A DNA stretch of 64,000 bases from positions 992,001-1,056,000 of the forward strand of contig OX422204.1 in assembly GCA_949130485.1 (NCBI GenBank), written 5' to 3'. Shown here in pieces: positions 16,734 to 61,835 of the stretch (within the stretch, counting starts at the first letter, position 1; each line of letters starts with the position of its first letter). The stretch is from Agelas oroides (taxonomy: Eukaryota > Porifera > Demospongiae > Agelasida > Agelasidae). A program made the translations under genes and the position numbers. Below the pieces are notes generated by a model. The model was not told where the DNA came from. It searched no databases and saw only the letters and a list, made by a program, of their open reading frames with translations.

Positions 16734-18732
16734 ATGCTGTCCCGGCAGACAACTTTGGGGCTGTTTCTCATTGCAGTGGCTCTGCTGTACGAGTTCTTCT
16801 GTCCCCAGTCTTTCAGGCAGGACAGCCCGGGGCAGGTGCTAGTGGCGGAGCTGGCGGGGGTATGGGAGAGGGAAATCCAACGGCCGAGCCACACGCCACA
16901 AAGGATTGCAGTGGGGTACGTGAAGTGGTAGGAGGAGGAGGGTCCTGCATGGACTGTCAGCCTCTTCATTTTCAGACCTCTCTGAAACCTCTGGCCCCTT
17001 GTATATAATCTTGTGAGCCGGAGTGTGTGGCCTGCGAGCCTACTTCAGTGGAGTATATTCTGGTGGAGACCTCCTCCTAGATAGACTCTTTCCCCCCTCC
17101 CTCCCTGCAGTGTCAACTCGAACCTGGACCTGATAGTCTCTGCCACTGACCTCCTGAAGGCGCTGCATGTCTCCCCCGGTGCTGCCATGACACACCCCCA
17201 TCTCTCCTCTGTTGAAGATCTGCAGGAGCTGGTCTCTTACTCAATGCAGCACTGTGCTGGCACGGAGCGGTTCTTCACCAGCCAAGAGGTGTTTGAGCAG
17301 ACGGTGCAAGCTGCCACCACTGTGAACCATAAGGTTGGTCAAACCCAGGGGACGTAGCCGAGTGGGATGGAGCCCTGGTGTAGATGCAAAACTTATCATA
17401 ACCAAATTTTATCTCTCCTCTTCTCCCTCCCCCCTCATCCTTCTCTATCCTCACAGTACCATATTGGTGGTAATGCTGCGTTGATTGCTGAAACTATTCA
17501 GCAGAGTGAACCAAATGCGCAGGTCAGATATGAGATTTGTGGGACGCTACTTCTTTGGTACTATACTGGTAGCTGTGTGTCGGCTGGTAGCATGATTAAC
17601 CCCATGTCGCTACCCTCATCCATTGTCTCCCATATTAAGTGTGTGCTTCGGAGCCTCATTCCTATGCTTCTCCTCAGCTTTTTGTATAAAAGCTGGGAGG
17701 AACCTGGGAACGAAGCTACACACCGTTACCATGACAACCACTCCTCCCCGTGACCAGGTTCTTCTTGTTGGCCCCATTGGCAACAAGCTGAGAGGACTGC
17801 TTCATCCAAAAATAAGGACACCCACCTTCACGCCAGAGAGCCAAGATGAGGTGCACATGATCTTAGAGTACCCTCCGGAGGAGAGGTGGGGAAGTGTCAG
17901 ATCATCCTGCGCCAACAGGGTCATTTATTCTCACGACATGTCCAACTCAAAACTGGTGGCTTTGGAGGACTTTGAGAGAATCCAGAGAACCTTCCAGCCA
18001 GACCTGGTCGTGTTGTCTGGAGCCCACCTTCTGGACGGTCAGCCGCAGGAAGTCTGGATGTCTAGACTGCAGGACATTGCTGCACTGCTGGACTCCATAC
18101 CGTCCAACACACTTGTACACTGGGAACTAGCTACAGTCGGAAATTTGCAATACTTTTTTCATTTGGCCGATACTATGTTCCCACGAATCGATTCTCTTGG
18201 ACTGAATGAACAAGAACTGGTATCAGTAGCAAAGGCTGCCAATGCTAGTTTTGATTTTGATGCAATTCCTTCCAAACCAAATATTCAAACCGTCTCTGAC
18301 ATTCTCCACTGGCTCGTGCAAAGCTATGGAGCAGAAGGGAGGGAGAACTCCCGATTAACAAGAGTTCACTTCCACTCCCTGACTTTCCACATGATTGCTA
18401 CCACCAGACAAGGCCCATGGAAGAACAGCCGAATGAGTGTGTTGGCTGGAGCGAGAGCTGCAGGGCTACAGGCCTGTGCCATGCCACGCTTTGAACCTGC
18501 CAAGTTTGAGCTGCGAATGCCTCTCGAGTTCACATTGTCTGACACAAATCCGATCCTCTCTCGGGCCAAGACCCGCTTCTCCCCTGTCAATCCAGCAGTG
18601 GAGTGGCAGAGAGAGGAGGTGGAATATTTCCTCAGTCCTGTGCTAGTGTGCAAGCAGCCTCCACGGACTGTAGGACTAGGAGATGCCATCTCTGCCCATG
18701 GACTCTTGTACTCCACGTTTAGAGCAAAGTAA
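16734..18732 (+). CDS. ADPGK: ADP-dependent glucokinase
   Basis: Phosphorylates glucose using ADP rather than ATP; in animals it is an ER-associated protein of the ribokinase-like fold. Exons 16734..16915, 17111..17333, 17457..17522 and 17758..18732 give 481 residues (human 497). The N-terminus is an uncleaved-type hydrophobic anchor, LGLFLIAVALLYEFF. Family blocks: VGVNSNLDLIVSATDLLKAL, HIGGNAALIAE, LLVGPIGNKL, ILEYPPEERWG, NRVIYSHDMSN, FQPDLVVLSGAHLLDGQ, SLGLNEQEL, then the catalytic VGLGDAISAHG, where the Asp of the GxGD motif is the base. Nothing essential is missing. The large last exon carries two-thirds of the protein. Intron 3 (17523-17757) holds an imperfect copy of the dispersed palindromic element. 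Confidence 0.96.
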
Positions 18733-19033: not shown

Positions 19034-22000
19034 CCATAGTAACTGGGGTGGTAGTTTGCAAGCAACTTTGGAGACCATGACCGCAGCCCCCTGCAAGTGC
19101 GGGAGGAGGGGACAGTACTGTCACATACAGTCAGGTGACACATGGCTGGCGGGTCTACTCACGCTGCCTGCAGGAGGCCGTGGAGCATCACCAGTCCTGT
19201 GTACCCACAGGAGAGCGCCCTGTCCACATACTCGGCAGCAGTCTCAAGGAGGACAGCTGTGTTCAGTGTGCTAGCCCACTCACCACACGCCTGCAAGTGA
19301 CAACGTTGACAAGACTACCTAACATGAGCGATAACACATTGAGAGCTTTTCTACACATATAGTAAGCCCTGGTAAAGAAACCAGGACTATTCTCAGCCCT
19401 GGTAAAGAAACCAGGGCTATTCTCAGCCCTGGTAAAGAAACCAGGACTATTCTCGGCCCTGGTAAAGAAACCAGGGCTATTCTCGGCCCTGGTAAAGAAA
19501 CCAGGACTATTCTCAGCCCTGGTAAAGAAACCATGACTATTCTCAGCCCTGGTAAAGAAACCAGGGCTATTCTCATCCCTGGTAAAGAAACCAGGGCTAT
19601 TCTCATCCCTGGTAAAGAAACCAGGGCTATTCTCAGCCCTGGTAAAGAAACCAGGGCTATTCTCAGCCCTGGTAAAGAAACCAGGGCTATTCTCAGCCCT
19701 GGTAAAGAAACCAGGGCTATTCTCAGCCCTGGTAAAGAAACCATGGCTATTCTCAGCCCTGGTAAAGAAACCAGGGCTATTCTCATCCCTGGTAAAGAAA
19801 CCAGGACTATTCTCATCCCTGGTAAAGAAACCAGGGCTATTCTCATCCCTGGTAAAGAAACCAGGGCTATTCTCATCCCTGGTAAAGAAACAAGGGCTAT
19901 TCTCAGCCCTGGTAAAGAAACCAGGACTATTCTCAGCCCTGGTAAAGAAACCAGGACTATTCTCGGCCCTGGTAAAGAAACCAGGGCTATTCTCGGCCCT
20001 GGTAAAGAAACCAGGGCTATTCTCGGCCCTGGTAAAGAAACCAGGGCTATTCTCGGCCCTGGTAAAGAAACCAGGGTTATTCTCGGCCCTGGTAAAGAAA
20101 CCAGGGTTATTCTCGGCCCTGGTAAAGAAACCAGGGCTATTCTCGGCCCTGGTAAAGAAACCAGGGCTATTCTCATCCCTGGTAAAGAAACCAGGGCTAT
20201 TCTCATCCCTGGTAAAGAAACAAGGGCTATTCTCAGCCCTGGTAAAGAAACCAGGACTATTCTCAGCCCTGGTAAAGAAACCAGGACTATTCTCAGCCCT
20301 GGTAAAGAAACCAGGACTATTCTCAGCCCTGGTAAAGAAACCAGGACTATTCTCAGCCCTGGTAAAGAAACCAGGACTATTCTCAGCCCTGGTAAAGAAA
20401 CCAGGACTATTCTCAGCCCTGGTAACGAAACCAGGACTATTCTCAGCCCTGGTAAAGAAACCAGGACTATTCTCATCCCTGGTAAAGAAACCAGGACTAT
20501 TCTCAGCCCTGGTAAAGAAACCAGGGCTATTCTCAGCCCTGGTAAAGAAACCAGGACTATTCTCAGCCCTGGTAAAGAAACCATGGCTATTCTCAGCCCT
20601 GGTAAAGAAACCAGGACTATTCTCAGCCCTGGTAAAGAAACCAGGACTATTCTCAGCCCTGGTAAAGAAACCAGGACTATTCTCAGCCCTGGTAAAGAAA
20701 CCAGGACTATTCTCAGCCCTGGTAAAGAAACCAGGGCTATTCTCAGCCCTGGTAAAGAAACCAGGACTATTCTCAGCCCTGGTAAAGAAACCAGGACTAT
20801 TCTCAGCCCTGGTAAAGAAACCAGGACTATTCTCAGCCCTGGTAAAGAAACCAGGACTATTCTCAGCCCTGGTAAAGAAACCAGGGCTATTCTCAGCCCT
20901 GGTAAAGAAACCAGGACTATTCTCAGCCCTGGTAAAGAAACCAGGACTATTCTCAGCCCTGGTAAAGAAACCAGGACTATTCTCAGCCCTGGTAAAGAAA
21001 CCAGGACTATTCTCAGCCCTGGTAAAGAAACCAGGACTATTCTCAGCCCTGGTAAAGAAACCAGGGCTATTCTCAGCCCTGGTAAAGAAACCAGGACTAT
21101 TCTCAGCCCTGGTAAAGAAACCAGGACTATTCTCAGCCCTGGTAAAGAAACCAGGACTATTCTCAGCCCTGGTAAAGAAACCAGGACTATTCTCAGCCCT
21201 GGTAAAGAAACCAGGACTATTCTCAGCCCTGGTAAAGAAACCATGGCTATTCTCGGCCCTGGTAAAGAAACCAGGACTATTCTCAGCCCTGGTAAAGAAA
21301 CCAGGGCTATTCTCGGCCCTGGTAAAGAAACCAGGGCTATTCTCATCCCTGCTGTGAAACCCTCACCTTGTCAAATGGTTCTGATGCATTGGAGTAGCCA
21401 TACGGTCCAGACGCCAGGTGGGTGTGAGCCAAGTCTGCACTGATCACCACTACCACCTTCTCAGGAAGGGACTCCAGATGGGCATACAATGACGCCCCTA
21501 TAATCAAATAAGTATTTAGGAAGGATTAGCCTTGTTCCCAGCCCTCCACCACAGCTACTGTTACTTGCAGTGGTGAGGAGGTATGCTGCTAACAACCTAC
21601 ATAAAGTAGCTGTATAGACTGTGAATGAGTTTAGATTTACATGTCTGTTGCCATGGTAACATGGCCACACTCACCCAATGCGAGGAGCTCTGGCACCATT
21701 GACACACTGTCAGTGTATCGTCTGCTAGGCTGGGAGATGATCATGATTTGGGAGTGTGAGAGGAGGGAGGGGGTGAGGAAATGGAGGGGAATCACCTCTC
21801 CCCACCCCAGGGGGAAAGGCTCTGCACCCTCTGGGGCAGCTGCAGGAGGTCCATAGGCTGCCAGACCAGACACATTGGCTCCCAGGGACTGTGTGAGGAC
21901 ATCAATATATCACATCACAAATGTCCAACATTGTTTTAGCAGGCAGTGCATATCTGGCTTCTGTGCCCAGCCCATACAATACCAGTCTATGCCATTGTGA

Positions 22001-54316: not shown

Positions 54317-54934
54317 ACTCTTTTACTGTAATACAAAAAATTAATAGTATTGCTAAACACTTTTACATGACACCACCGGTACGTGTGTACAGCGATGTGT
54401 GTACAGCGATGTGTGCACGGCTATAACTCCCCACGGAATCAATTTAGTGCAGGTTGGCTGCACACACACCAGGGATGCTAGGTCAGACTACACACTACAG
54501 TGCTTCTAACACGGTACCACACGCAGACAAGGGGGAGGAAGGGTAATCATGAAGTAGCGATACACGTGGTTATGACTTTGCGAGCTGCAGGAACGAGACA
54601 TCCTCGCACTGTGCTACTGTAATAAAACTCTGCCGACAATGATACGCTAATGAAATAAATCTGGTCACGAACAACGGTGGTACTGACATAACTAGCATAC
54701 AATCCACGCTAGAATACTGCAACTCACTCTCTCGCTTCTTTCGCAGTCACCTTCTCAACTGCCAAGAATTACTTTCGTACGGCCACGCCCATTTTTCGGA
54801 AATTACTACTACTCAACAGCATACCCGCACCCATACGACAGTCTGTAATGCTCTAACGGAAGCTGCTGTCTAGTTGCCAAGATACAGTAAAGTGTGTGTT
54901 TGGTTATGCATCTACTTGGCTCCCACCGGAGGCC
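54317..54934. promoter_or_regulatory. Divergent region, ACSBG / ANAPC11
   Basis: 618 bp between start codons. It has a short direct repeat GTGTGTACAGCGATGT (54385-54412) and E-box-like ACACGTGG at 54562-54569. No other gene seen. Confidence 0.4.
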
Positions 54935-55389
54935 ATGAAAGTAAAGGTCAAAAGTTGGACAGCTGTGGCCGTTTGGAAGTGGGTGGCAAACGATGAGACA
55001 GAGTGTGGAATCTGCCGTCTCCCATTTGATGGATGCTGCCCTGACTGTCGGCTGCCAGGAGATGACTGCCCCCTAGGTGGGTAAGATGCTTGGACTCCCA
55101 AACCGTTTCTATTATCTATGGTGCTACAAAGCTGCACACACAATTCCTAATTGGGTGAAATTGTTTCAACACTTGAGAATATCATGTGACTGTTGTTGAA
55201 GGTCGTATGGCTATATAATAACCCTCTTCCCCTCAACACATGGCATGCATATGGTGCACTCTCCCACCCGCAGTGTCTGGCCAGTGTCATCACAGTTTCC
55301 ACATGCACTGTATTCTGAAGTGGCTGGCGGCTCAACATGAGCAACAGCAATGTCCCATGTGCAGACAGGACTGGCAGTTCAGTGATTAA
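54935..55389 (+). CDS. ANAPC11: Anaphase-promoting complex subunit 11 (RING-H2)
   Basis: Catalytic RING subunit of the APC/C ubiquitin ligase; it binds the cullin ANAPC2 and recruits E2 enzymes to ubiquitinate cyclin B and securin. Exons 54935..55076 and 55274..55389 give 85 residues (human 84). It begins [20 protein letters not shown]. All zinc ligands of the extended RING are visible: [33 protein letters not shown] and CPMCRQDW, including the third zinc site specific to ANAPC11. The phase-1 splice joins CPL to VSGQC. The gene is convergent with the beta-helix receptor, 81 bp apart. Confidence 0.97.
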
Positions 55390-55470
55390 CTAGCTAGCTA
55401 ACATTCATATCATGTATTCACAACAACATTTAGTATTCATAATGAAACAATTCTGTACAGACAAGAGTTG

Positions 55471-58400
55471 CTAGTTTTCTTGTGAGTCAGGAGCACTGAT
55501 GACAGATACAGTATACTTGCCTTTCTTCCGCACATCAACTCTGACACTACAACTTTCCTGCATCTGCTGACTTGAGGCAGGCTCTGTTGCGGGCCGTGCC
55601 AAGCTTGACTTCTTCCGTCCCTTCTGTGCAACTCGCTTGAACCACGACGCAGGGGCTCCTAATTTAGTACTGCTCTGGATGTCTGTTTCTGGTTCTGTGT
55701 AGGAAGTAGACTCGTCACTGGAAAATATCAAGGGCTCCCTCTCCAGATTTGGTGAATTGCTTCCAGCTGGTCGTGTAGACCACGACATTTGGGTTTGGGA
55801 AGACAAGAATGATAGTGACGTAGAGGAACGCCTTCCCTTACAGTAATTGTAAACCAGTGTCATTAATTTCAGTGCACAAAGCCCTGCAAAGTAGACCACT
55901 GGTGTCAGGACCAGGATATGGACTGCTAGGAGGCGATAGATCTTTGCATCTCCCAACACAACGTTTGCAGTGGAGCCATTAAAAAGGCTGTAGATTGCCA
56001 AATCTGCTAGGAAGACAGTATCAAGTATGTTCAGCCACTTGCTGTGATAGGGTTGGACAGCAGTGTGGATGACTAAGACTAGAATGGAGAGAATCTGCAG
56101 AAAGAAGATGCCTCCAAATTCCCCCAAGTCAATCAGTGAAAATATAAACACAAACTGTCGGCAGACGAGGTAGTAGCCGGCAAACCAACGATACTTGGTC
56201 TTATAGCATGCCTGGTATTCATCAAGGAATGGTTTAATGCGTGTTAGGTTGACTCGAGGTATGCGTGCAAGGCAGGGCGAGAAGAGCAGCATGAAGAGGA
56301 AAGGAATGACAATGAGTACCTGTATAAAGATGGCTACTAAAGCATAAGGGAGATGGCCAGAGGGGTGAAAGTATGGAATGGTTGGTTCAATCTTCACATA
56401 AACACCAAAGACATTCTCAAACCTGATGAAGTTTAAGATTGAGAGAGAAGTTTCAGTCAGGGAGGTAAAGGAGAGGTAGAGCAAGATGCAAAGAGCTCTC
56501 ACACCATAGTTCTGTTTCGAGATGGTTGCAAACCTAGGCCAGCAGCGTGTGACACCAATGATGAGCAGCATTACAATGGAGATAAAGAGTGGATGGATAT
56601 AACGCAGGATCGAGTGCTGAATGTTGTTCAACCCAGGTGCAAAACACTTTTCAATGAGCCCCAAGAAGCGTGGTTCCACTTGTATGAAGCCACCAAATGT
56701 GTACAACACCAACGTAAGGGAGGGATAGGTGTTGTTGGTGAGGTAGGGAAGCACACCGTAGTAGTAGATGAGACAGTAAAGATGACCGGAGCCGAGACGA
56801 AGTTTGAGCTTCAGCACGAGAAGTAGAGCCAAAACTAGTACTGTCCAAAACACCAACAGTAAGAAGACAAGCAAGATTGTGTTTCCTGCATTGCAGCTGT
56901 TTTCAGGGACACACTCGAGGGCATCAAAAGTGAACTGGAAGCCAGGTTTGCAGCTGGAGCACATGATACCTCCACGGTTTGAGTCACAAAGTTTGTCTGG
57001 ATCAAACTTTGGGAGCTTGCAGAATGACTGGAAGACCTCGTTACAAGGCTCAGTTGGACAGTCACCATTGGAGTAGTCACAGAGGTTGTTTGGACAGTTG
57101 GCAATGGTTGAAGTGTTGTGGGCTGGCCCAAACCAGTAGCCATACTTGATGCAAGTGATACCATGGTCGAATCCACAGTAGACCTGTTCAGCCCCGAAAC
57201 ACTCACACCTGTGTGTCTCCTTACTGTACACATAGCCCACAGGACAGGACGTAATGTTCAAGTGCAGATATCCGACTGTCGAAGGAACTGTATTAGTCAG
57301 CAGCACCAGAACAGCATCATTAACCTCATCACTATCTTCTGGACCAATGATATTAAAAGGTGTCGAGATTCTGGTATTGTTTAAAGTAATCAACTTCTGG
57401 CCTATAAGATCCAGATCATCACTTGTGTTACACTGCAGATTAACACATTACACAAATGCCAGCAGATACTGTATCATTCAGTTTAAGAATAATTTTCTGT
57501 CATCTATGGATCAAAATGTTACAGTAAACTTCCTGAATAATTCTGCAGCTGTATCAGGACAAGCGATATACCTCAGCACCCCTGGTGGCTGCTATATAGA
57601 CAGCAACCATTCTCTGCCCTTCATGGATAAAAGTATCTACCACTATGAGAGTGATGATCCAAAGAAAACCCAGATCACTACTCCACCAAGCCAAATTGAG
57701 TTTGGGCCACCTGCTGAGAATCAAGATGGCATCTATACCACACAGGTGACTCTAGGACAGGCTTTTGAGATAAATCCAGTCTCCAAAGATGTCTTTGGCC
57801 AGCCCACTCAAGGCTCGGCTGTCCTTTCCTTGAGATAAGGGATGGAGTAAGCGGAGAATATTGCTCCACCCGCCAGAAACGCCCTATTACTGTCAAAGGT
57901 CAGGTTCAGGTTTGGGCTGAGGGTGACCCAGGCAATACCCGCGAGGTGAATCGCACCTCCACTGATGCCCACATTCTCCTGAAAAAGAACATCTCCCCTC
58001 ATGAGCACTGTAGTTGAGCTTACAACTAGTGCACTCCCATGGTTTTGTATAAAGGTATTTGCACCATTCAGAATCAATGGAATATCCTCGGTGTATACTG
58101 CTCCTAACCCATAGATCGTTGACTTATCTATATCCATGAATATTCTGTTTCCTTCAAAGAGGCAATCAGTAATCGTAACACTTGTTGGAAAGCCTCCGAC
58201 CTCACTGTACCAGGCACTCATGACGATCGCTGCACCAGATGTGTCGACATGGTTATCTGTAAAATTTGTCCCTGTGATGGTCAGGTGGCTATCTTCACTC
58301 TCAATATTGGCTACCTGCCTGGTACTGATGTAGGAAATAGCTCCTGCCGATTTAGCTTTGTTGCTGTTAAACACACAGTCTGTTATACAGTATGAATTAT

Positions 58401-59490
58401 TCTTCTCCTCTGTGCCAAATCCAGAATAGTTAGTGGGCGGGAAAAAGCCAAATCGGAGTCCACCACCTGTCAGGGCTTGGTTTGCTGTGAATGAAGACTC
58501 AGATACGCTGACAGTATTCGAGCTTGAATCATCCCCTATCCCTACCTCCATCCCACCTCCCCAGAGGGCATGATTGTCAGTGAAATTACAGTTTGTGACT
58601 TGAAATGTGTTCAGTGTAGCCCTTCCTGTCAGCCTGATTGACAAACCACCACCGTGAGCCAGAGTTCTGTGTTCCTTATATGACAGTATTGCCTCTGTTC
58701 GAGACAACTCTGGAGAGACTGTATTGTTGTTTAGGTAGAAAGTGCAATTCTCAATAGTGTAACTGCTGTAAGACGTGAAGCTGTTGGGTTGGACAGGGGA
58801 GTCACAGGTAGTAAAATTCCCACAGAAAGTTTTTTCAATGTAGATGCCTACACTTTTGTTGTAGCAAGAATCAGTGGAGCAAGAGAAGAACAGTGTGTTG
58901 TTGAAAAACAGAGAGTCCTTGATCACGACTTCACCGCCTATATCATACATGCTGATTCCTGATCCTCGATCAGATGTGAACAAACACATGTGGACTGTTA
59001 AATTCATGGAATGGTAGAAGAACAAGGCAGAGGATACAGCTGGGAATGTCTCGTTCACACTTGGGTTAAAAGCTGTGGTTTTGTGAAGTATCGAACACCC
59101 TTGAAAAGCAACATTCTCGATGCAGACATTATCAACCTCTTCAAAAGCAATCCCGGCACCAAAGTCACACAACAAGACCTGCTGCTCAACAGAGGCACCA
59201 AGGATCACAAGTCCAGTTCTCTGTGAAACATGTATAGGCTTCAACACACGGAGGTTGTTGGTACTGTAATTCAGTCTCACTACCGTATTGTCATCAAGTT
59301 GGTTGTTCTGTAGCGCATACTCCAGTGTAAGACATGGGACAGCAGCGTCCAGGCAGCCCATTGTATCATTACCTGTGTCACTCACTGTCAATGTGTGGTC
59401 AGTGGGGACCACACTGCATGCTGACTGCTGGGAGGATGAGACTGGAAACACCACCATGAACAGTAGCAGCAGAACCCACGGGCTGGCCAT
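55471..59490 (-). CDS. Intronless beta-helix, multi-pass membrane protein (with inverted internal segment)
   Basis: No named family recognised. Signal peptide MASPWVLLLLFMVVFPVSSS (ATG at 59490), then a ~550-residue right-handed beta-helix-like ectodomain: repeated NCNFTDNHALWGGGMEV, FTANQALTGGGLRFG and FNSNKAKSAGAIS blocks, like polymorphic-outer-membrane and pectin-lyase-fold repeats, with many N-glycosylation sites. Next come Cys-rich EGF-like modules (CPVGYVYSKETHRCECFG, CDYSNGDCPTEPC, CSSCKPGF) and nine or ten membrane helices (e.g. TILLVFLLLVFWTVLVLALL), then a Ser-rich cytosolic tail. As it stands the frame runs 59490 to 57833, breaks, and resumes from 57435 to 55471. The 397 bp between are in the opposite orientation; read the other way they join in frame at both ends, giving 1,340 codons including the stop. 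The gene is either disrupted by an inversion or misassembled. Likely role, a surface receptor, is inference. Confidence 0.8.
57436..57832 (+). other. Inverted 397-bp segment inside the beta-helix gene
   Basis: Read on the plus strand this codes a stretch that belongs in the middle of the minus-strand protein: NVTVNFLNNSAAVSGQAIYL, IEFGPPAENQDGIYTTQVTL and FGQPTQGSAVLSL, matching the end of a beta-helix domain. Left junction at CTG|CAG (57435/57436), right at TTG|AGA (57832/57833). Lengths 1658 + 397 + 1965 sum to 4020, divisible by three. Confidence 0.85.
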
Positions 59491-60230
59491 TATGATCACC
59501 TTAAGTGAACACTGCAGGATTGGTGTGTACAAGAAACGGTGTCATAGTGTACAGTGTCCCCCCCCCCCCCAGCTGCTGTTGTCAGGTCCATGCATGACCC
59601 AACTGCCAGTTGCAGTACTATCAAGAGAATGCACGAGGGGACATAATTCGCTGGTGAATATGCGGGGGAGGATAGTGGGCTCACTGGTGAATAAATTATG
59701 TCCGGGGAGGACATTATTCACTCGAACAATGGCAGAATGGATAACTCTCAAGAAAGCCAGCCCAGCAGTTGAAAGGGTATTTCATTCAATACAGCTACCT
59801 CTTTCTGTCTACCTACATATCCATCCACCGGGTCTGGCTTTGCGAGGCTACCACTGGCCATGCTACATGCGGCTTGACATCTCAGCATACAAGCTTACCT
59901 CACCGTCTGTCCGTTAGCGCGATCGACTCTGAGTTATGTGAGGGTGGGGCTGCTGAAGACAACTACCACGTAGATGTTTACAGCTTCATAAGCTTAGGTA
60001 TGAGAATTGGGTGCTGATACGCTCATTCGTTGGGGAACTCCCCTTCGTTGCGGGGTTCATAGTTCATGGTTCATAGCTGCCCGGACCGGCCGCCCCTGGC
60101 TGCATGGTGGCGCGGCCAAGTTCGAATACAGACTCGATCACTCACTGTGAACCATGACGACTCTAAATGCTACTACTGGATTGTAGTCGACTGTGAATTC
60201 TATAATCAGCTGAGCTCAGTATTGATCGAT
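59491..60230. promoter_or_regulatory. Divergent region, beta-helix receptor / CARD protein, with kappaB-like site
   Basis: 740 bp between start codons. GGGGAACTCCCC (60032-60043) fits the GGGRNWYYCC NF-kappaB consensus and is a full palindrome, ~190 bp upstream of the CARD start codon. A direct repeat GGTTCATAG/AGTTCATGGTTCATAG follows (60054-60077). A second in-frame ATG at 60066 would extend the CARD protein by 55 residues. Confidence 0.5.
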
Positions 60231-61835
60231 ATGTCGGGGCATAACGATATTGCGAACGCATTGCGTGAGCACCGCAGTGAAATATCTTGCAGCCTCAATC
60301 CATCTCAACTCTGGTCTCATATGTGTGTCGCAGATTTAGTACAGCCAACCCAGTATGAAGATGTCAAGGACCTGTCTAGGAGTAGGCAGGTGGAATTTCT
60401 CCTCGATGTAGTTGAGAAGAAGGGTAAAGCCCGTGAAGGTGCCTATCTGGACTTTCTTCACTGTCTGGAGACTGCCAAGGAACACCTTGGTCATGCTTAC
60501 GCTGCCTCGCTACTAAGTGGGCGACCATTTGCTTCACAAACCGACATCAATACTTCCGCGATGTTGAAACAGAAAATACAGAAGAGTATGTCAGCTATGA
60601 TGAACATTAATACGCATGCCTTGGTACCTTTTCTGATACGAAACCATCTTCTGACTTCTGACGAAGTGGAGATCTTTTCGAATAAAACAACAACAGATCA
60701 AGAAAAGAATAACATTCTTTTTGGTCGGCTTGAAACGAAAGGACCCACTGCACACTTGCTCTTTGCAAGTTGTTTACAAGAAGAGAAGGATCACCCCACC
60801 CACCAGCAGTTGCTTTGTCTGATCTCTAGTGATGTCGATGATGATGAAGATGAGGTGGAAGAAGACAACGGAGTCAGGATTCTAAGAAAGCGCAAGGCTT
60901 TAGAGGATGTGGTTCTTCCTGCAGTCAAAGTAACAAGACGAGACCCAGGCCAAGTAAAAGCTCATGGTGCACTCACCTCACAGTTTTATTACGACAAAGT
61001 AAAGGAGATTCGTAGACTCCACTATTTTGCACAGTGGGAAGCGGTGGAGAAGATTGTAGATGAGTGCAGACAATCTGGTGACCAGGAACTTTACATTGCT
61101 GTCATGTTGAGGAACTGCTCAGGGTATGTCACTCGTAAGCAGACGGATATCGTCAAGAGTGCAGTTGCAAAAGCATACAGGCTGTTAGATGAGGTTGACA
61201 ATGACAATGGAGTAGTTCTTAGAAGCAGGTGTGAGTGGATGTTAGCCAAGATGTACCGTTACATGAACAACAGTGAGGAAGCACAGACACATGTCGAAAC
61301 TGCCTTGTCAATCCATTTTCGATATAATGTCCAGCCGGGTGAAGACACGGCCCTCAGTAACTACTGTCAAGCTTGCATCCTCTTGGAATCTATTGCCAAG
61401 AACTGGTGCCCTCGAGAAATAGATTATGCAAGAAAGTGTCTCAAGACAGCGACTGACCATGCTGTCCTTGGTGATTATGGACTGTACGTCTCTCACCATC
61501 ACATCCGTCTTGCACGGTTGTGCCTCCATTCTTCCCAACACCAGGCTGGCACTTGCACTGATCCAAGCTTACTTAAAGAAGCTGGAAATGCTCTGAAAGG
61601 AGTAGACGAGGATATTCTGGCCCCTAGAACAAGTTGCCTCTTCTACCTCACCAAGTCAGATCTCTACCGAAACATGAAGAGGAGTATTGAAGCTAAAAAG
61701 TATGCTGAAATGGCACACGAGATTGCTAAGAGCAACAGCTTCAAAACTGAACTCCACTCAGCCAAACAGAGGCTTCAAGTTCTTGAAATCACAGAACAAG
61801 ATTCGAATCCAGCTGAAACACTGCAGGTCGTCTAA
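60231..61835 (+). CDS. Tandem-CARD protein with helical-repeat tail
   Basis: Intronless, 534 residues from the ATG at 60231, chosen because the first domain begins at once. CARD-like domain 1 (about 5-100): ALREHRSEISCSLNPSQLWS, RSRQVEFLLDVVEKKGKA, YLDFLHCLETAKEHLGHAYA, close in pattern to CARD9/BCL10-type CARDs. CARD-like domain 2 (about 107-200): NTHALVPFLIRNHLLTSDEV, EKNNILFGRLETKGPTAH, weaker. An acidic linker (DVDDDEDEVEEDNG) and a basic RILRKRKALED follow. The C-terminal ~270 residues are all-helical TPR-like pairs (e.g. RCEWMLAKMYRYMNNSEEAQ). No nuclease, NACHT or protease motif is seen. CARD proteins assemble into signalling filaments in innate immunity and apoptosis; a role as adaptor is inference. 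It is head-to-head with the beta-helix receptor. Confidence 0.82.
   Translation: MSGHNDIANALREHRSEISCSLNPSQLWSHMCVADLVQPTQYEDVKDLSRSRQVEFLLDVVEKKGKAREGAYLDFLHCLETAKEHLGHAYAASLLSGRPFASQTDINTSAMLKQKIQKSMSAMMNINTHALVPFLIRNHLLTSDEVEIFSNKTTTDQEKNNILFGRLETKGPTAHLLFASCLQEEKDHPTHQQLLCLISSDVDDDEDEVEEDNGVRILRKRKALEDVVLPAVKVTRRDPGQVKAHGALTSQFYYDKVKEIRRLHYFAQWEAVEKIVDECRQSGDQELYIAVMLRNCSGYVTRKQTDIVKSAVAKAYRLLDEVDNDNGVVLRSRCEWMLAKMYRYMNNSEEAQTHVETALSIHFRYNVQPGEDTALSNYCQACILLESIAKNWCPREIDYARKCLKTATDHAVLGDYGLYVSHHHIRLARLCLHSSQHQAGTCTDPSLLKEAGNALKGVDEDILAPRTSCLFYLTKSDLYRNMKRSIEAKKYAEMAHEIAKSNSFKTELHSAKQRLQVLEITEQDSNPAETLQVV

Follow-up and report, generated by a model that had tools for sequence, protein, structure and literature searches.

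The window analysed here is a 64-kb stretch (C22:992001-1056000) of a 259-Mb assembly of 141 contigs, and the genome-wide searches described below cover that assembly. The genome is eukaryotic and, judging by its gene content, probably that of a sponge-like animal. It contains a gene on the minus strand that runs from an ATG at 59490 to a TAG stop at 55473-55471 and is interrupted by approximately 390 bp coding on the plus strand. The features of the locus, with the basis for each, are as follows.

57833..59490, minus strand: 5' part of the gene, covering about residues 1-552: a start resembling a signal peptide, then the beta-helix rungs (ORF, Pfam and hydropathy)
57436..57832, plus strand: inverted segment, encoding the last part of the beta-helix and what follows it, with edges probably at 57436-57450 and 57830-57836 (paralog HMM)
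55471..57435, minus strand: 3' part of the gene, with a Cys-rich stretch, about five to six hydrophobic stretches and a polar tail, ending in the TAG at 55473-55471 (open frame and paralog alignment)
57808..57810, minus strand: first in-frame stop of the gene as assembled (translation)
57424..57447, no strand: near-palindrome of 24 bp at the left edge (arms matching at 10/12 positions)
57254..57838, plus strand: incidental 194-codon ORF produced by the flip, beginning in the antisense of the 3' part (ORF list and translation)

As assembled, the minus-strand reading from the ATG at 59490 comprises 560 codons and ends at a stop at 57810-57808, so that the whole protein is not encoded. An earlier note on this DNA had the minus frame stopping at 57833, whereas the first stop actually lies about 23 nt beyond that presumed break. 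The same note had proposed that the frame resumes at 57435 and that the 397 bp in between code on the plus strand, and here it was right: reversing approximately 57436-57832 restores an uninterrupted ORF of 1,339 codons. From 59490 to 55471 the three parts total 4,020 nt including the TAG, divisible by three as had been stated, and the rebuilt frame contains no other stop or frameshift across 4,017 nt. The reverse-complemented segment corresponds to the missing part, the flanks are in place and no extra copy was detected, which is the configuration of a balanced microinversion. The presence of the flip in this assembly is well supported.

In the 5' part, Pfam recognizes Beta_helix (9.6e-09, 35.5 bits against a cut-off of 25.9) and a Chlam_PMP repeat (1.1e-05), and the only hydrophobic stretch in the 560-codon reading is residues 1-19. 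The hydrophobic stretches of the 3' part were assigned from hydropathy alone; its sole Pfam match, DUF7630, falls under the cut-off of that family (E 0.032). The plus-frame translation of 57254-57835 gave no Pfam matches. Next to the gene, on the opposite strand, lies a gene with a CARD domain (60066-61835, plus strand; Pfam 2.4e-12), and at about 54930-55390 on the plus strand there is a coding sequence that we take, by eye, to be a RING-type zinc finger resembling the APC11 subunit.

The interrupted gene belongs to a large family in this genome. Four spanning queries returned at least 108, 71, 125 and 86 matches, which were pooled in full and joined where they lay within 2 kb, giving at least 209 family-like loci; these counts are lower bounds because only the best candidates were scored. 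Many of the loci are single open frames of approximately 1,200-1,900 codons and are therefore apparently intronless, and several lie in tandem clusters, for example on C13, C17, C1 and C4. Among 20 loci that were fetched, 14 have ATG frames of more than 1,150 codons; the remaining six (L046-L051), picked for their short listed open frames, have none above 700. A few matches from two of the family queries contain stops, and a family-like remnant on the minus strand of another contig (G000:C1:31796653-31797581), with 10 stops in its 3' match, is apparently a decayed copy. Of five paralogs scanned with Pfam, three gave the Chlam_PMP repeat, two gave Beta_helix (one above the cut-off) and two gave no match; because Pfam misses some paralogs, the beta-helix label for part of the family rests on homology. 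A profile of the paralogs' membrane half found no match among solved structures at E values up to 1, and literature searches on the receptor family returned nothing to the point.

The earlier note had also made its reading depend on homology between the segment and the corresponding part of related proteins. That homology was found. An HMM was built from 13 paralog segments, omitting both the row from the window and L038, the latter because it is nearly the same as L039, and was searched against all six-frame stretches of at least 20 residues across the 64 kb. It matches the plus frame alone, at 57236-57835 (E 5.1e-20), and the runner-up in the window has an E value of 1.4. Four residues that are invariant in the 14-row alignment (C12, N35, C52 and G107) are all present in the row from the window. 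Judged from this alignment, the segment is conserved family sequence rather than an alternative version or cassette. A chance antisense ORF was rejected on the strength of the HMM match and the rarity of open antisense blocks: among 16,779 antisense blocks of 396 bp from 14 intact paralogs, 81 are open in the same-register frame and 124 in any antisense frame. The flipped protein is 35% identical to its best paralog, L032, over 1,275 columns and 31% identical to L033 over 1,351, and it is colinear with both on a single strand, nearly full length and across both joins (tblastn; MAFFT alignment of the joins).

Among the matches listed, 208 of the 209 loci have all their matches on one strand, and the sole locus with matches on both strands is the gene described here. 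Matches at 140 loci, this gene included, span at least 850 bp; those at the other 69 are too short, so a small flip could be missed there. By tblastn, no flip was found among the 20 fetched loci, some of which aligned only partly (one over 119 columns).

The position of the edges is less sharply defined. The segment does join in frame at both breakpoints, as the earlier note had it, but this does not fix its exact ends: in-frame joining permits hundreds of breakpoint pairs, 652 being open in one grid and 559 in another. With an HMM of 14 paralogs, the edges 57436/57832 score 231.9 bits (rank 10) and the best edges, 57447-57449/57834-57836, score 235.8, compared with 134.9 for the unflipped sequence. 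When the HMM is built from the two closest paralogs alone, edges near 57447-57450 score 173.4-175.5 bits, 57436/57832 scores 170.2 and the unflipped sequence 106.8. In pairwise comparisons, 57436/57832 is preferred by eight of the 14 paralogs (by 14 points for L032) and 57448/57835 by the other six (by 30 points for L033 and 20 for L043). Since the HMM and pairwise scores conflict, the edges are left at 57436-57450 and 57830-57836; they appear uncertain by about 12 bp, which would put the segment at about 384-397 bp.

This latitude affects how the sequences at the breaks are to be read. The CTGCAG palindrome in which the left break had been placed exists and forms the centre of the 24-bp near-palindrome at 57424-57447, in which the left edge lies, within the same uncertainty of about 12 bp. 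Half of the near-palindrome lies between the two choices of left edge, and with the alternative edges it would predate the flip. Across the window, 11 of 63,960 positions have arms that match as well or better. Folded as a single strand, the near-palindrome is predicted to form a hairpin of -3.7 kcal/mol (z -1.24, weak), and hairpin folding is weak at both edges (z -1.24 and -0.37). With edges at 57436/57832, each break in the un-inverted sequence would be preceded by a copy of a short direct repeat (10/12; chance 0.0024, the register being allowed some freedom), and a gapped comparison of 30 bp per break gives a P value of 0.057 when assessed across the window and 0.007 when confined to the gene. 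Because this evidence is mixed and depends on the choice of edges, the direct repeat is not built upon.

The homology, the colinearity and the gain in HMM score on flipping make it probable that one gene of this large receptor-like family, whose proteins combine a beta-helix with a multi-pass membrane part, has recently undergone a real microinversion spanning about 384-397 bp. Either an ordinary mutation of recent date or a fault of assembly most likely accounts for the flip. In the latter, an artefact of assembly or library, the genome would be un-inverted and the reference wrong over about 390 bp; we regard this as possible but rather unlikely. An intact rebuilt frame is exactly what an un-inverted genome predicts, and a human long-read survey describes five sites that are inverted in all samples, which it ascribes to an inverted reference or possible assembly error (PMC12350158). 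At the present locus, however, the region has a single match in the genome, there are no inverted repeats above chance at its edges to mislead an assembler, and none of the other family-like loci located has matches on two strands, so that nothing points to a common fault of the assembly. In general, assemblers seldom turn round unique sequence a few hundred bases long, which also counts against an artefact.

If the microinversion is real, the organism's DNA would carry the flip, and the sequences at its joins bear on how it may have arisen. The joins have 0-2 bp of microhomology, with a maximum of 2 bp at each of four edge pairs tested, the exact edges being uncertain; because at least 2 bp is found in 15.5% of 20,000 random segments, 2 bp is no evidence in itself. 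Within 60 bp of the edges, no inverted repeats were found above chance (the best ungapped score, 7, is equalled by 58% of 300 random pairs). Little microhomology and inverted repeats no better than chance fit joins made without homology. Two breaks, or two template switches, would have turned the segment round, the left of them at near-palindromic sequence, and the ends would have been joined through 0-2 bp of microhomology; we infer either the rejoining of two breaks the wrong way round or a template switch during replication. Inversion mediated by repeats or by a recombinase is not supported, the inverted repeats at the edges being within chance. Gene conversion from an inverted paralog was likewise rejected: a DNA search of the assembly, which skips very common words, returned one match to the segment, in one orientation, and the closest of the 20 fetched paralogs is the 35% identical L032.

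The proposed event resembles known inversions in part. In the human survey, the median length among 257 simple balanced inversions is 1,565 bp, and 45 of these are bordered by inverted repeats, so that most are without them (PMC12350158). Those inversions measure hundreds of bases to a few kilobases, as does the segment described here, but they were called and genotyped from reads (PMC12350158), whereas here only one assembled orientation is known. Human-chimpanzee microinversions measure 17-33 nt, each has inverted repeats of 3-75 nt on its flanks, and one lies in an exon, though not in its coding segment (PMC8755829). They share with the present case a small, clean and balanced form; in contrast, this segment is about 390 bp long, has 0-2 bp at its joins and lies inside coding sequence. 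Short-range template switches in great apes also produce a neighbouring stretch in reverse complement, but there the longest copied fragment is 128 nt and length is kept in 5.5% of events (PMC7954356), compared with about 390 bp and an apparently preserved length here.

The earlier note had offered two interpretations, an assembly error and a real inversion acting as an allele switch. An inversion in the assembly stands, but the idea of a switch gains no support, given inverted repeats no better than chance, one DNA match to the segment and one locus in 209 with matches on both strands. Such a switch in orientation, or a selected inversion polymorphism, would toggle the product between a membrane receptor and a secreted ectodomain. 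In its favour, the product as assembled has a signal-peptide-like start and ends ahead of any hydrophobic membrane stretch, and there is a near-palindrome at one edge; the right edge has no counterpart (arms matching at 3/12 positions, at most 6 within 10 bp), no other locus located has matches on both strands, and the flipped piece is family sequence of the conserved kind, not an alternative cassette. We consider this reading extremely unlikely. The same slight weight is given to a version in which populations would keep both orientations, one encoding the membrane receptor and the other a secreted beta-helix ectodomain that might serve as a soluble decoy; the near-palindrome at the left edge would be what causes the flip to happen repeatedly. 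Bacterial segments inverted by recombinases are bounded by inverted repeats that the recombinase uses; they also present an inverted coding piece, but bounding repeats of this kind are not above chance here. None of the tests made lends support to a programmed or built-in switch.

For a recent microinversion, age may be approached through decay. Assuming ratios of indels to substitutions of 0.05-0.2 and no selection on the copy after it was flipped, a lesion is expected in 95% of neutral copies by 0.4-1.0% divergence, depending on the indel rate assumed. As the rebuilt frame has no other lesion, the flip is recent, or is a segregating allele, or is absent from the organism as an artefact; a clean frame is equally expected if the genome itself is un-inverted. 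An old inversion after which the gene has lived on as two, one for a secreted beta-helix protein and the other for a membrane protein, is very unlikely. It could draw on the 3' part, where a 497-codon ATG frame opens on the minus strand at 56964, but this frame begins inside the Cys-rich stretch with no signal-like start (by eye), and the plus-strand piece, which would be useless in such an arrangement, is still stop-free and keeps the family-invariant residues.

If the recent microinversion is real, the flipped gene would yield a beta-helix fragment of 560 codons that has no membrane part and is probably secreted. The allele would then be null or nearly so, and it may be heterozygous or confined to the individual sequenced; from the sequence, the receptor would be lost and a secreted remnant is possible. 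The case is new, and the kind of mutation, a microinversion, is already known. A real flip would represent a clearly readable coding microinversion caught before decay within a large receptor-like family, and would recommend looking for strand-flipped pieces before concluding that a gene is absent or split; should the flip prove an artefact, the finding corrects the reference. Its importance would be much greater only if both orientations turn up in nature.

Elsewhere in the window, two open frames overlap on opposite strands (19319-21346, minus, 675 codons; 19533-21443, plus, 636 codons), neither with a Pfam match at E 0.001. Close by, at 17623-18732 on the plus strand, lies a frame resembling ADP-dependent glucokinase/phosphofructokinase (Pfam 5.1e-88).
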